A DNA stretch of 36,646 nucleotides, taken from NCBI GenBank assembly GCA_024276655.1, contig JAJRWU010000248.1, positions 1 to 36,646 of the forward strand. Reading direction: 5' to 3'. Position 1 is the stretch's first letter; each line of letters starts with the position of its first letter. Shown here in pieces: positions 6,667 to 24,825 of the stretch. The position numbers were made by a program, and so were the translations under genes. The notes under the pieces are model-generated. The model was not told the DNA's origin. It ran no database searches and worked only from the letters and a program-made list of their open reading frames with translations. The stretch is from Planctomycetota bacterium (GTDB lineage: Bacteria > Planctomycetota > Planctomycetia > Pirellulales > Pirellulaceae).

Positions 6667-8052
6667 TCAACCGCGTGGGGATAGCCTCTTTTTCCAGGCC
6701 AGAACCTGATTTCGCACCTCTTGCGGCGCGGCGGATCCGTAGCTGGTGAAGGCGGCCAGGGCGTTCTCGACGCCCAAAATGGCGTAAATGCGGGCATCCA
6801 ACCGCTGGTCGACCTCCTGTAACTCTTCCAGCGTGAGTTCCGCTAGCGGCACATTGCGAGACATCGCCTTGCCCACCAACGCCCCCACCAAATGGTGGGC
6901 CGTTCGTTGGGGGATACCCTCCTTGATCAGGAATTCCATCAGTGTGGTGGCGTCGAGATACCCGCGTTCGAGTCCTTCGCCGATGCGCGCTCTTTGTAGC
7001 TCCGCGCCCGCCACCATGGGCGCCGCCAACTGCAAGCAGGCGCGCACGCTGTCGAACACATCGAACAGCGGCGGTTTGTCTTCTTGGAGATCGCGGTTGT
7101 AGGCCAACGGCAGGCCCTTCACCAAAACCAGCAGCGTTTGCAAGCCGCCCACCGCTCGCGCCGTTTTGCCGCGAATCAATTCCAACACATCAGGATTGAT
7201 CTTCTGCGGCATGATCGAGGAGCCGGTGCAAAACTGTTGGGGCAGGCGAATGAAACCGAATTCGACGGTCGACCACAAAATCCACTCTTCGGCCCACGTG
7301 CTTAAGTGCTCGGCGATTAAGGTCAGGGCGAATGTAAACTCGATGGCAAAATCGCGATCGCTGGAAACGTCTATGCTATTAGCCGCGACGCCCTCGAAGC
7401 CTAGCCGCTTCGCGACATCTTCCCGATCAATCGCGATGCTGGTGCCGGCCACCGCCGCGACTCCCAAACTGCACACGTTCACCCGCCGCCGGCAATCGAG
7501 CAGCCGCGAGATATCTCGCTCCAATTTCTCGCAGTAGGCCAGCCAATAGTGCGGCGCGGGCACGGGTTGCGCTCGCTGCATGTGGGTGTATGCCGGCAAG
7601 ACGACGTCCATGTCGGCGTCGCAACGTCCTACAAACGCCGCCTGCACGCCGCGCAGCAGCAGCACGATTTCGTCGATGGCGTCGCGCGTCCAGAGCCGCA
7701 GATCGGTCGAAACCTGATCATTCCGACTGCGCCCGGTGTGCAGCTTTCGGCCCACGTCGCCCAGCCGTTCGATCAAAGCGCTCTCGATGTGCATATGCAC
7801 ATCTTCCAACTCACGGCGAAAGGGAAATCGGCCTTCGTCGAACTCCACTTCAATCGCTCGCAAGGCCTCCTCGATTTGCAAACTCTCGGCCGCGGTGAGC
7901 ACGCCGACTTGAGCCAACATTTGAGCATGCGCGATCGACCCGGTAATATCGTGCCGGTAGAGCCGGTGGTCGAAACTGATGCTCTCGGTAAACTGCTCGA
8001 CGCGGTCGTCGGCCGCTTGATCGAAAACGCCGCTACGGGAAGGACTGGACAA
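6667..8052 (-). CDS. argH: Argininosuccinate lyase
   Basis: Catalyses the last step of arginine synthesis, cleaving argininosuccinate to arginine and fumarate; cytosolic homotetramer of the fumarase/aspartase superfamily. Family marks are visible throughout: the N-terminal SGVFDQAADDRVEQFTESI stretch, HMHIESALIERLGDVG, TGRSRNDQVSTDLRLW, and the superfamily signature GSSIMPQKINPDVLELIRGK that carries the catalytic serine loop. With a start at TTG 8050-8052 the product has 461 residues, the usual ArgH size; GCGAGG lies just upstream as ribosome-binding site and no ATG or GTG is suitably placed. The frame is open upstream to 8349, but those residues are unlike ArgH. It stands alone: no argG or other arginine gene is in the window. 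The HEAT-repeat gene follows on the same strand. Confidence 0.96.
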   Translation of the reverse strand: MSSPSRSGVFDQAADDRVEQFTESISFDHRLYRHDITGSIAHAQMLAQVGVLTAAESLQIEEALRAIEVEFDEGRFPFRRELEDVHMHIESALIERLGDVGRKLHTGRSRNDQVSTDLRLWTRDAIDEIVLLLRGVQAAFVGRCDADMDVVLPAYTHMQRAQPVPAPHYWLAYCEKLERDISRLLDCRRRVNVCSLGVAAVAGTSIAIDREDVAKRLGFEGVAANSIDVSSDRDFAIEFTFALTLIAEHLSTWAEEWILWSTVEFGFIRLPQQFCTGSSIMPQKINPDVLELIRGKTARAVGGLQTLLVLVKGLPLAYNRDLQEDKPPLFDVFDSVRACLQLAAPMVAGAELQRARIGEGLERGYLDATTLMEFLIKEGIPQRTAHHLVGALVGKAMSRNVPLAELTLEELQEVDQRLDARIYAILGVENALAAFTSYGSAAPQEVRNQVLAWKKRLSPRG

Positions 8053-8296
8053 CGGAACCTCGCGCCCTCGGGGGCGTATTAAAACAGGAAAAGCGGGAAG
8101 ACGGTGCTCATCGCAAACGGCCGCTAAGGCGGCGCATGCTCTCACACATTGCCTTTGCCGCCGCCGAACAAGACTAGTGTATAACCGCCCTGAACTGCCT
8201 GCTATAGGGGCGCCGCAGGGTTGCCAAAACACCAGCGCCAAAACACCGATGGGCCCGTCGGTCTTGCGCTGTGGGACCCCGATTTTTACGCAGCAA

Positions 8297-8776
8297 TCAC
8301 CGTTGGGGCGGGCCCGGCGCACCCGCCACGACGCTGCTCGGCAAACCAAGTTGCGAGATCGTGACGTCGTCGATCCAGACTTCGCCGGCGCCGCTCCAGG
8401 AAAACGTCACTCGGGCCGGACCATCATGCGCGACGGCCCGATACAGAGAAAACTCCCGCCATTGTTCGGCGGCGGAAATTCGCACGGCGAGGTCGGGACC
8501 GGCTTCGGAATCGTAGATGGAAAGTTGGCCCGGCGTCTCTTTTTGCGATTGGGCGGTTCGCACCCAACCTCGCACATGCAGGAAAAAGCCGCGTTTGACC
8601 TGCACCGCGGCCGAAACCATTTGGATCGGCGGCGGGCGTTCCGCCGAGGCCGCTGCCGCGCTGCTCGGGTTCGAAAGTTTCAGGGCGAAGCGTCCTGCAT
8701 GAGGACGCTCGCTCGAAAGTTCAACTCGGCCGGCAAGGGCGCCTTTCGCGGAGCGGCTCCAGCCGGCTCGCAGCAT
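8297..8776 (-). CDS. C-terminal piece of the split planctomycete protein
   Basis: About 159 residues from an internal ATG at 8774-8776 to a TGA. It is a beta-rich, carbohydrate-binding-module-like domain: GRVELSSERPHAGRFALKL, FLHVRGWVRTAQ, WREFSLYRAV and finally GAGEVWIDDVTISQLG. The last motif repeats the VWIDDLQI ending of the N-terminal piece, so the full protein seems to carry one such module at each end. It has no signal peptide and starts only four codons after the stop of the middle piece, in the same frame, so it is probably the tail of one larger gene. Confidence 0.6.
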   Translation of the reverse strand: MLRAGWSRSAKGALAGRVELSSERPHAGRFALKLSNPSSAAAASAERPPPIQMVSAAVQVKRGFFLHVRGWVRTAQSQKETPGQLSIYDSEAGPDLAVRISAAEQWREFSLYRAVAHDGPARVTFSWSGAGEVWIDDVTISQLGLPSSVVAGAPGPPQR

Positions 8777-8788
8777 GTTGTCGAGGTT

Positions 8789-10108
8789 TTACATCGTTCC
8801 GCCCGGCAACAGGTTCGACGACCAGGGCTGGTTTTTTGTCTGCTTGCGCAACGCCCATTGAACCGGCAACGCCGCGAAGTTCAAGCAGCACGGGCTCGCC
8901 GCAGGACTCGGCAAGGAAACAACCTCCTGTTCCCACAAGGCCCGTCGGATAACCGCGATGTCGGCCCGCGTGCGACGTGCAAATTGAAGCGAGTTGAGGT
9001 CGTCTCGCGTATCTAGCAGGGTTTCACAGCGTTTGAGGTTGGCGCGCGCCTCGTGCAGTTTGTTCTTGGCGGCGGGAAGCGAAGCCAGCCGTTGGTTTTC
9101 GCTGGCCAGCACTTCTTCCAACTGAGCCAGGCTGATCGCCGCGATTTCGTAATGCAGCTCCGCTCGCCTGCGCAGCGAATTGTGCCGCCGCCGGTAGAGG
9201 TGGTTGATGACCAGCGGGTCTTGGCTGACGACAATCGCGGCAAACGCCTCGAAGCGTTTCAGAGTGATTCGTAAACCGCCGCCTCGCCGTTGGAATTCAA
9301 GCGGCCGAATTTGACCCTCGCTAATCAGGTAAGGCCGGGCGTCGATCGAAACGCCCGGAATCGTTACCGTGAGCCGAGCGGCCACGGGGGCGGAACTCAC
9401 CAACTGTTGCTGGGCCGACGATCGGACCAGCATCGCCAGGCGTGAACGCTCCGTTTGAAACAGCGCCGATTCAATATCGTGGCGGTTGAGGTCCAATGAA
9501 CCGAGATGCTCGCCGGCGCCAATCCAGGGCGCCAGAAGCGAGAGGTCCAGACAAACCAACTCGATGGCCGCGCTGCGAAGCTGCGAGACGGAATCTTCGC
9601 CATCGAGCGGCGTTCGCGAACGAAACACAAATCCTCTGGCGCCGGCCGCAGCGGCAAGGAAGGCCTGCAAGCGAATTTGTTCGTATTCGACGACGAGCCG
9701 GTCCGACCAATGGGGGGCGGCCGTTTCGGCCGACTGCAACAGCGCGATTTGCTCGACTAACGACGCCGGCGGTTCGGTCGCGATGGCGGCCCAAAACGGA
9801 GCCGCTCCTTGCCGATGCGCGGCGGAAAGATGTTGAAAAAAGTCTTCCAGGGAGAATTCCGTCCCCAAGGGAGTCGAGTTGATAAACCGTAGATCTAGCG
9901 TTCGCTCCAGGCGGGGCGCCGTCCGACGGAAACCGCCGAACTTCAAGGGCTTGCCGCCGGCGGCGGTCCACTGGCTGTCATGATGTTTGATGGCGCCCAA
10001 ATCTCTGGCGGTGAGGTCGGCTCCCATGTCGAGAGCGAGCATGCCCTGGCGGGAGTTTTGCTCTTGAGGACCATTCATTTGCGGCGGCGCCACTAGCCAA
10101 ATTTTCAC
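8789..10108 (-). CDS. Middle piece of the split planctomycete protein
   Basis: About 439 residues from GTG 10106-10108, which reads KIWLVAPPQ immediately. It has no signal peptide and no strong ribosome-binding site, so independent translation of an extracytoplasmic domain is doubtful. The sequence includes LALDMGADLT, RTLDLRFINSTPLGTEFSLEDFFQHL and QDPLVINHLYRR, which I associate with the glycosidase-like middle of the planctomycete family, followed by a helical region (AAISLAQLEEVLASENQRLASL). It ends ...NLLPGGTM at TAA 8789-8791, just where the C-terminal domain begins. No catalytic residues can be named from sequence alone. Confidence 0.6.
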   Translation of the reverse strand: MKIWLVAPPQMNGPQEQNSRQGMLALDMGADLTARDLGAIKHHDSQWTAAGGKPLKFGGFRRTAPRLERTLDLRFINSTPLGTEFSLEDFFQHLSAAHRQGAAPFWAAIATEPPASLVEQIALLQSAETAAPHWSDRLVVEYEQIRLQAFLAAAAGARGFVFRSRTPLDGEDSVSQLRSAAIELVCLDLSLLAPWIGAGEHLGSLDLNRHDIESALFQTERSRLAMLVRSSAQQQLVSSAPVAARLTVTIPGVSIDARPYLISEGQIRPLEFQRRGGGLRITLKRFEAFAAIVVSQDPLVINHLYRRRHNSLRRRAELHYEIAAISLAQLEEVLASENQRLASLPAAKNKLHEARANLKRCETLLDTRDDLNSLQFARRTRADIAVIRRALWEQEVVSLPSPAASPCCLNFAALPVQWALRKQTKNQPWSSNLLPGGTM

Positions 10109-10117
10109 GGCGGCCGC

Positions 10118-11014
10118 TTAGTTTTTTTGTTGTTCGGTCGCCGGCGATGGCAGACGCAGCGTGTTGATTCCCATGGCCTTCAACGTCGAAAACGATTCAC
10201 CATTGTGGTCGAGCACGCGTGGCGGGAAAGGGCGTTTCTCCACCTCCAACACACTGCCCTGGAGTGTGGGATAGCCGCGCTGCTCCAAGACGGCGGGTCG
10301 CGGCGCGGCGTTGGGAGCGCCGCCCTTGCCAGACGGCGTTCGTTTGGCGGAGGCAATATTTCCAGGCCCAATATTTCCAGGCCCAACCGCGATGTGCCCA
10401 GCGATTTGTAGGTCGTCGATCCAGACTTCGGTTTTGCCAGGTCCTCCATACGCATTCAAGGCGACCATATCGAGAAAGGCTCCGCGCGCATCGACTTGCG
10501 AACCGAACTGAGTTCGCACGCCGCGCACGTGCGCTTCGAACTTGCCCACCACGCCCGAGATTTTGAGCTGCTGCCAGCGGTCGACTTGCGAGTATTTGGC
10601 GCCCTCGATCAAGAACGAGATCGGTTCGCCGGTTCGGGGGTGGGCGGAATGCGGCAATACAATGCGCGCCACGATTTGCAGATCGGCCCGGTTGCTCTTG
10701 ACCCACAACCGAGGCGACAACTCCGAGATGATATGCGCCGGTTGAATGTCTTGTCCGATGTAGGCGTAGGCGCCAAACTTCGCCAAAATGCCGAAGTATT
10801 CCGCGCCTTGCCCGCCATGCGATTGCCGAAAAGTGCGTTCGTGTTGGGCGAGTTTGGCGTGGGCGTCGGAATCGACGAGCCTCCAAGACGTGCTAGGTGT
10901 TTCAAACGTCTCGAAATAGTCGCCCCGGACATCGGCCGGCGCGCTGGCGAGAAATAAAATCGCCAGGAAAAGTACCGAGCGTCGACCCACCGGCATGGCG
11001 CGTTTCGATTTCAT
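10118..11014 (-). CDS. N-terminal piece of the split planctomycete protein
   Basis: About 298 residues. ATG at 11012-11014 starts a Sec signal peptide (positive KSKRAMPVGRR, then VLFLAILFLASAPADVRG). The mature part begins YFETFETPSTSWRLVDSDAH and contains a carbohydrate-binding-like beta-sandwich ending EVWIDDLQIAGHI. A Pro/Gly linker holds a duplicated GPGNI. The piece ends ...TLKAMGINTLRLPSPATEQQKN at TAA 10118-10120, in the middle of what looks like the start of the next domain. If translated alone it would be an exported beta-sandwich. A 7-bp inverted repeat (11032-11038/11047-11053) lies just upstream of the start. Confidence 0.6.
   Translation of the reverse strand: MKSKRAMPVGRRSVLFLAILFLASAPADVRGDYFETFETPSTSWRLVDSDAHAKLAQHERTFRQSHGGQGAEYFGILAKFGAYAYIGQDIQPAHIISELSPRLWVKSNRADLQIVARIVLPHSAHPRTGEPISFLIEGAKYSQVDRWQQLKISGVVGKFEAHVRGVRTQFGSQVDARGAFLDMVALNAYGGPGKTEVWIDDLQIAGHIAVGPGNIGPGNIASAKRTPSGKGGAPNAAPRPAVLEQRGYPTLQGSVLEVEKRPFPPRVLDHNGESFSTLKAMGINTLRLPSPATEQQKN
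10354..10383 (-). repeat. Two perfect 15-bp tandem repeats coding GPGNI
   Basis: The unit caatatttccaggcc occurs twice in tandem within the linker of the N-terminal piece of the split gene; it preserves the frame. Confidence 0.95.
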
Positions 11015-12901: not shown

Positions 12902-12987
12902 GGCGAGCGGCGGAAACGAATTCACCGAAACCCGCCAGGTTTTTTTTCCCAGGGAGCCAGATTCGCGCCGCCGTTTGAAGCAGGCAA

Positions 12988-13021
12988 GAGTTCGTTGCAA
13001 GCCGGAGTTCGTTGCAAGCCG
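12988..13021. repeat. Two perfect 17-bp tandem repeats
   Basis: The unit gagttcgttgcaagccg occurs twice. Unlike the coding tandem repeats in this window its length is not a multiple of three, in keeping with a non-coding location. Confidence 0.95.
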
Positions 13022-13031
13022 GAGGCTTGAC

Positions 13032-13242
13032 AGCCATTAGCCGGCGGTCAGCGCAGCGCCACCGCCGGTATCGACCGCGCAATAACTCCCGCATCCCGGC
13101 GGGATGCTAGGATGCAGCGGTTGGAACAGCGGCCATCGGCGGCGCCACATTGCCGACGCCGCTGGCATCCTTTCAGGATGCGGTGTTTCAGCGATTCGAT
13201 CCTCCGGTGGTGTTCGCCGTGCTCGACCGCCGGCTAATGGCT
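13032..13242. repeat. MITE-like element with 18-bp perfect terminal inverted repeats
   Basis: agccattagccggcggtc at 13032-13049 is the exact reverse complement of 13225-13242. Inside are two short hairpins around gcatccc/gcatcc (13092-13108 and 13165-13181). There is no open frame for a transposase. From memory, this 'agccattagccggcggt' type of element is widespread in planctomycete genomes. Confidence 0.8.
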
Positions 13243-13278
13243 TGAATCCCTGTCGGGATAAATTTTCAGGACGATTCC

Positions 13279-18051: not shown

Positions 18052-18144
18052 GAGATCCTCTTTGAATCCAGGTGCGTTAGCATAAGGCGAGCGGCGGGGA
18101 ATAATTTACCCGCACGCAGCGGGAGTCCGTGAGTTTTTTTTAGG

Positions 18145-18162
18145 TTCCCGCCTACGCGGGAA
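18145..18162. repeat. REP-like hairpin ttcccgcctacgcgggaa
   Basis: 7-bp inverted repeat with a 4-nt loop, followed by tgacc. From memory this 'cgcgggaatgac' hairpin is a common intergenic repeat in many proteobacteria and other genomes. Confidence 0.6.
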
Positions 18163-18175
18163 TGACCGTTTGCTG

Positions 18176-18205
18176 ATTCACTCGCTTGCGCTTCGTGCTT
18201 GTATT
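18176..18205. repeat. Dispersed repeat coding NTSTKRKRV on the minus strand
   Basis: The segment from attcactcgcttgcgcttcg to cttgtatt translates on the minus strand as NTSTKRKRVN, a string I remember from many spurious planctomycete proteins. It is likely a dispersed intergenic repeat. Confidence 0.5.
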
Positions 18206-18837
18206 AGGCGACTTCTCATCTGCCGCTCGCCTACATGCACCGACCCGCCGGTCGCGTTTCGGAAAAACACTGTGTTTGAGGCGTGTTGTTGACCGGCAAA
18301 ATCCGGGAAAACGATTTGTTTTTCCCAAGACTTGCAATAGTGTTCATTTGTATATATACTGACAGGCCGCCGCTGTGGGTTTTAGCCCTCGGCCGCGCTG
18401 CGGAAATGATTCTAGCGTGTGATCCCGATTCGGCAGGAGCCGGCCGCGGTCGTCTGGCGAACAGACGAACAGCCCTTGGAGCCCAGGCTCCTTGATTCTT
18501 TGTCCACCATCGGCGGGTGGCGTTCCAAATTGCTCAAACGATTTGAAATATAGCCATGATGACGCCCGCGAAGCATTGCCTTCAATGGTGGTGTTTATTG
18601 TGGCTGATTGGCGTGTCCTGAAAACAACCTCACGCATCGGGAAGGGGAGCCACGATGGCGCTCTGTTTATATTTCGCACCGTTGCCAATGGCCCCTTCAA
18701 AGGCAAGCCGAAGGCGACTGTGTTTCGCGCCAGCGCATACCGACAAGACGGAAAAACGCAGTCGCTTTCGGTCTGCCTGGCAACGAAAAATGACGCTATT
18801 TTCAACAGCCCGCGGCGATTGCCAGAGGCGGCGGCGA

Positions 18838-20923: not shown

Positions 20924-21210
20924 GACTTCGTTCCTTCCGTGTCGTGTATGAACTTTTGAGCAAGCCGATTCGCTCCCTCGCTGTACATACGTATCGCAGC
21001 AGCAACGACACCTTAGGTCCCTGGCGCCGAAATTTTTCGAAATTCCCTATCGAGCAACTGCTAGCAGTTTGTTGGCAGCCGCGTGGGCTGTATTTACGAT
21101 ACGCTCCGCCCGCCGCCTTGGTTCATTCGATCCATTCGTCAAAGTTTGCCGGACCGCTCCCTGTTTTGCCCGGTTGTTTATACATAAGCATCGAGCGGAA
21201 AATTAGTGTC

Positions 21211-21275
21211 GTAGCCATGCTCGCCAGAGCGTGGGATGGTTCACCGCTCACCCACCGTCTGGCGACGATGGCTAC
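21211..21275. repeat. Imperfect 25-bp inverted repeat (gtagccat type)
   Basis: gtagccatgctcgccagagc at 21211 onward pairs with the reverse complement of 21251-21275, with only two dinucleotide differences (gc against cg). The direct string atcgagcgg occurs on both sides of it. From memory, 'gtagccatgctcgccag' is a recurrent intergenic palindrome in planctomycetes. Confidence 0.7.
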
Positions 21276-21319
21276 ACAAATGCGACCGTTATTTATCGAG
21301 CGGTGCTAAGTTCCCTCTT

Positions 21320-24714: not shown

Positions 24715-24743
24715 CGGTTCGTCCGGCAATAATTTGCCGAATT

Positions 24744-24780
24744 AAAAGCCCGGCATTTTGAAAATGCCGGGCTTTTTTGA
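24744..24780 (+). terminator. Intrinsic terminator of coaB; dispersed palindrome, copy 4
   Basis: 16-bp perfect arms aaaagcccggcatttt/aaaatgccgggctttt followed by a T-run, 29 bp after the coaB stop. It is a variant of the dispersed palindrome, and a 69-bp stretch around it is repeated almost exactly at 35152-35221. Confidence 0.88.
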
Positions 24781-24825
24781 ACTACAATCGGTAACTTATT
24801 TCAGGACGATCGCTAATATACTTTC

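Follow-up and report, generated by a model that had tools for sequence, protein, structure and literature searches.

Two in-frame TAA codons in a planctomycete gene, best read as miscalled bases in the assembly consensus

A large gene in the Pirellulaceae assembly GCA_024276655.1 is interrupted by two TAA codons that are probably base errors in the assembled consensus: sequence error is the best reading of the data, with recent real loss of the gene as its main rival and readthrough of the stops as a long shot. The gene lies in a stretch of 36,646 nucleotides (contig JAJRWU010000248.1), which is referred to here as the window. It is present today as three pieces in a single minus-strand frame (11014-8297), with TAA at codons 299 and 742, as an earlier sequence-only reading of this DNA had proposed (table 1). 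That reading had also taken the pieces for one large planctomycete protein, recently inactivated, and had allowed for sequence error or readthrough instead. The intact gene of a sister genome bears out the single protein, and the split does appear recent, but the weight now moves from inactivation to sequence error, because this assembly carries like nonsense codons in conserved housekeeping genes, the gene for Der foremost among them and that for SecD with two.

Table 1. Positions in the window of the interrupted gene, its pieces, the two TAA codons, and the downstream neighbor.
Feature	Coordinates	Strand	Remarks
Ancestral gene, 905 codons + stop TGA	8297..11014	(-)	Aligns without a break to the intact sister gene and to 28 relatives
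First in-frame TAA, codon 299	10118..10120 (read 10120-10118)	(-)	Sister codon GAA
Second in-frame TAA, codon 742	8789..8791 (read 8791-8789)	(-)	Sister codon GAA
N-terminal piece, 298 codons	10121..11014	(-)	Hydrophobic N-terminus resembling a signal peptide (by eye)
Middle piece, 442 codons	8792..10117	(-)	
C-terminal piece, 163 codons + natural TGA	8297..8788	(-)	
Argininosuccinate lyase, downstream neighbor	6667..8067	(-)	PF00206, PF14698; uninterrupted in both genomes

The closest relative found is a Planctomycetaceae MAG (contig QIKY01000218.1), hereafter the sister, in which one unbroken 905-codon ORF encodes the protein, reading GAA at each stop site and showing no indel relative to the genome studied here. 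The continuous family-like sequence that had been noticed on reading through both junctions was recovered in the alignment to 28 further relatives, which runs across both points without a break, and none of the 28 proteins ends or starts at either of them. Among the 29 proteins including the sister, the column of the first stop holds Glu in 24, Asp in 2, Ser in 2, and Leu in 1, and the column of the second stop holds Glu in all 29. Each stop is flanked on both sides by conserved sequence in one frame, far beyond what chance would give. A search with the whole protein found matches in 141 of 149 family genomes, and the two internal stops occur together only in the genome studied here; five other family genomes show one internal stop, which in both of those inspected (L016 and L017) is the natural end of the protein. 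The 439-residue ORF of the middle piece has a match in 178 of 241 family genomes, with no stop inside it among the matches listed.

The rest of the gene is intact, as the sequence-only reading had held: at the 203 columns conserved among the relatives, the protein departs privately at three, namely the two stops and one Arg-to-Gln change, and the sister protein at none. The event, whatever its nature, is therefore recent. Compared with the sister, the interrupted gene has a dN/dS of 0.193, which exceeds that of five neighboring genes (0.06-0.17) and the upper quartile of a background of 79 genes (median 0.095, upper quartile 0.138), yet lies far below 1. Selection has acted on the gene during most of the period since the split from the sister, or still does, if slightly more weakly than on its neighbors. 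Across the assembly, the genes marked as interrupted have a pooled pN/pS of 0.174 versus 0.119 for the background, in a set of ten rows of which one (L138) was marked for a stop within gapped alignment that is not counted otherwise; these genes are under purifying selection, in some cases weaker than average.

Nonsense changes of the same class are present elsewhere in the assembly, including in housekeeping genes (ten further cases in 943 kb). The scanned sequence comprises 63 stretches and the window, 943,327 bases in all, with rows sorted by eye, and 12 nonsense codons were recognized within otherwise intact genes: 11 from codon-score scans, together with the second stop of the studied gene, which appeared in none of these scans. 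The ten outside the studied gene interrupt the genes for the GTPase Der, SecD (two stops), a FabA-like dehydratase, a creatinase-like peptidase, a sigma-54 regulator, a histidine kinase, an ABC ATPase, a C-terminal processing protease, and a caspase-like WD-repeat protein; the names were assigned by eye, with Pfam support for Der (via the sister protein), for the FabA-like domain, and for SecD (in the part that precedes its first stop). At all 12 sites the sister has a sense codon (GAA at 8, GAG at 2, TCG and CAA at 1 each), and the residues lost are Glu at 10 sites and Ser and Gln at one each, the latter two being the SecD sites. The strongest single case is Der (contig C45, 9303-10628), with TAA at codon 224 of 442. 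Der is an essential protein; 146 of the 149 family genomes match it, and among the matches listed none of the other 145 genomes has any stop in it.

In the sister, no comparable stop was recognized in 496,968 bases sorted by eye, the rows being read as gene boundaries, antisense frames, or possible selenocysteine TGA codons. Within aligned coding frames we counted 11 clean stops here (40,902 codons) versus none in the sister (40,176 codons), in alignments that total 139.5 kb and of which much was fetched for containing such sites. The count for this genome derives from 13 rows, two of which were dropped (one lies 30 codons in, probably before the start, and one is gapped), and the only row for the sister was dropped as gapped; the stop in the ABC ATPase (L138 + 5408) lies outside the coding-frame alignments and is based on direct comparison with the sister codon. 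It should be noted that the codon-score scans (23 rows here vs. 11 in 497 kb of the sister) and a looser version of them (51 rows here vs. 29 in 624 kb of the sister) overlist, most discarded rows looking like adjacent same-frame genes or antisense frames, and that the codon-score scans also overlook some, the second stop of the studied gene among them. For one of the discarded rows of this genome (L154 + 15832), comparison showed the TAA to be conserved in the sister. The looser scan also gave candidates that are left out of the count: L216 + 18815, L214 - 1369, and L220 + 11547 in 274 kb of additional sequence, and L056 + 637 and L148 - 7848 in the stretches covered earlier. By eye, L214 - 1369 is a DnaJ-like protein and L216 + 18815 an ABC-2 type permease; L148 - 7848 is an NAD-dependent epimerase by eye and by comparison with solved relatives, in two of which the candidate stop aligns with Cys and Thr.

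Under sequence error, G would have been read as T on the gene strand at both TAA sites, as part of a low background of G:C>T:A errors across the genome that shows up where a stop codon arises, and the gene in the living organism would be intact and encode one 905-residue protein. Error in place of real mutation as the cause is something we infer; it could have come about, for example, through DNA damage before sequencing combined with thin coverage, and oxidative damage is described as giving rise to G>T mismatches (PMC12390751). In the assembly, G:C>T:A accounts for 11 of the 12 nonsense changes, 10 of them as G>T on the gene strand (P = 0.045, on a list chosen by eye). Over 139.5 kb, 685 such changes stand against 650 in the reverse direction, no clear excess and compatible with either the presence or the absence of an error rate of about 1e-4 per base; the coding frames hold 498 versus 464. 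A generally poor assembly was considered and rejected, since frame-breaking gaps are no commoner here than in the sister (92 vs. 109 rows, many of them one local alignment gap counted from both sides). Some features of the list, which was chosen by eye, count against error: Glu codons account for 10 of the 11 G:C>T:A nonsense changes, versus 54% predicted from codon use (P = 0.011, nominally unusual). Two genes carry two stops each, a clustering above what a uniform rate would suggest. The dN/dS of the studied gene, above its neighbors and the upper quartile of the background, is likewise what weaker selection would give. At three of the 12 sites (L167 + 9053, L144 - 2549, and L138 + 5408) the base preceding the stop also differs from the sister; it is C here in each case, possibly by chance at third codon positions. 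The Glu bias and the differing preceding bases at these three sites are not fully explained by error.

The main rival is a very recent true loss of a dispensable gene, through one G-to-T nonsense mutation and later another, with further decay pending, which we consider possible though clearly less probable than error. Such a loss would suit the presence of two stops within one 2.7-kb gene, its dN/dS above that of all five neighbors, and the pooled pN/pS of interrupted genes above background, and the gene may be dispensable given that 63 of 241 family genomes lack a match to the middle piece and 8 of 149 lack one to the whole protein, many of these genomes being incomplete. It sits less well with a gene that has no frameshift and, besides the stops, a single private departure at its conserved columns, and dispensability of this gene leaves the same class of change in Der and SecD inexplicable. 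Very improbable, in our judgment, is a real split into three cistrons by termination and reinitiation. A start codon does follow each stop within five codons (GTG as the fourth codon after the first TAA and ATG as the fifth after the second), but start codons that near often occur by chance, all 28 relatives examined have one ORF with no boundary at either point, the middle piece is free of stops among the matches listed in family genomes, and none of the pieces reaches the cut-off of a Pfam or NCBIfam family.

Similarly hard to credit is that the stops are passed, with UAA (and UAG) decoded as Glu at some efficiency and the full protein made. In its favor are the replacement of Glu codons at 10 of 12 stops, the conserved Glu columns at both studied sites, and the housekeeping genes affected, as tolerated recoding would permit; a trypanosomatid is described that reads UAR as Glu with UAA doubling as a stop (PMC12153298). 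Decoding specific to Glu seemed well supported by the first scans but lost ground with the TCG and CAA found at the SecD sites of the sister; the epimerase candidate, aligned with Cys and Thr, likewise speaks against it, as does the absence of the stops from the sister. No tRNA with anticodon UUA or CUA occurs among 42 Rfam tRNA matches (41 of them read by ARAGORN), which come from 150 scored of 202 first-look candidates in an incomplete assembly, and a dedicated pattern search for the UUA anticodon found none. No tRNA-Glu(UUC) turned up in this genome either, though the sister has one; incomplete assembly or an incomplete search is the probable cause. A weak tRNA-like match on contig C302 (L122, 5815-5879, minus strand, 32.4 bits) has a short D arm and no ARAGORN call; read by eye, the anticodon loop is GAC. 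Among 440 long ORFs in the stretches of this genome that were analysed, 253 terminate in UAA or UAG (TAA 143, TAG 110, TGA 187). The fuller version of this idea, in which UAA and UAG are decoded as Glu usefully while still serving as terminators, and Glu-to-stop changes are tolerated even in housekeeping genes, strikes us as very improbable. The passages on alternative codes in PMC8629427 do not decide the matter, and a literature search on premature stops in MAGs found no paper that matched the full topic.

As to the product, neither the three pieces nor the sister protein has a Pfam or NCBIfam match above cut-off (the middle piece has two Pfam matches, both below it), and 24 aligned family members have no Pfam match at E 0.01. 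A profile search of solved structures gave weak matches only, two of them to glycoside hydrolase family 2 (E 0.04), and a structure predicted from the sequence of the sister protein alone was poor (mean pLDDT 36.5). The product would be a secreted-looking planctomycete protein whose family shows no Pfam match among the members scanned; the weak structure matches hint that it may be secreted and carbohydrate-active. The window also contains four short dispersed-repeat families (12929-13270, 18083-18233, 21185-21310, and 24737-24809), each with many copies in this genome and in the sister; copies of the 125-base family are mostly 98-100% identical here, and the four look like small non-autonomous mobile elements. 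At a separate locus (L048 + 5619, contig C6), a TGA lies within a redoxin/AhpC-TSA domain (GDT-TGA-PVCHG) and is conserved in the sister (L179 / L192); the redoxin is likely a selenoprotein. The sister has a further TGA (L076 + 6835, contig C16) in the context CRY-TGA-LGAHAM, which we take to be reminiscent of alkylhydroperoxidase-like selenoproteins.

Paired nonsense codons in one gene suggest that the gene is lost as long as that gene alone is considered. In this assembly such stops number about a dozen per megabase, and the genes that carry them are unlikely to be all defunct; pseudogene counts and claims of gene loss based on it are therefore not to be trusted without the reads. Should the stops be real, their preference for Glu codons would pose a strange but testable question about translation.

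Compared with known systems, the interrupted gene resembles a recent nonsense pseudogene in its single-base nonsense changes, its otherwise intact sequence, and the intact orthologue in the sister, but differs in that this assembly has comparable nonsense codons in housekeeping genes as well. With artefacts of 8-oxoguanine (oxidized guanine) it shares the G:C>T:A changes that make up 11 of the 12. Such artefacts are normally confined to a low allele fraction, whereas here they would have had to reach the consensus, which would require low depth. The nuclear code of Blastocrithidia nonstop, in which UAR is read as Glu, is similar in that the stops fall mostly at Glu and UAA is also a terminator (PMC12153298); unlike in that protist, 2 of the 12 stops in this bacterium are at non-Glu sites, no cognate tRNA was found, and only about a dozen sites were recognized per Mb. 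Selenocysteine recoding appears to be represented in this genus by the in-frame TGA of the redoxin gene, at its separate locus (L048 + 5619). The stops studied here are TAA and absent from the sister, whereas the redoxin TGA is conserved and lies in a redox-motif context.
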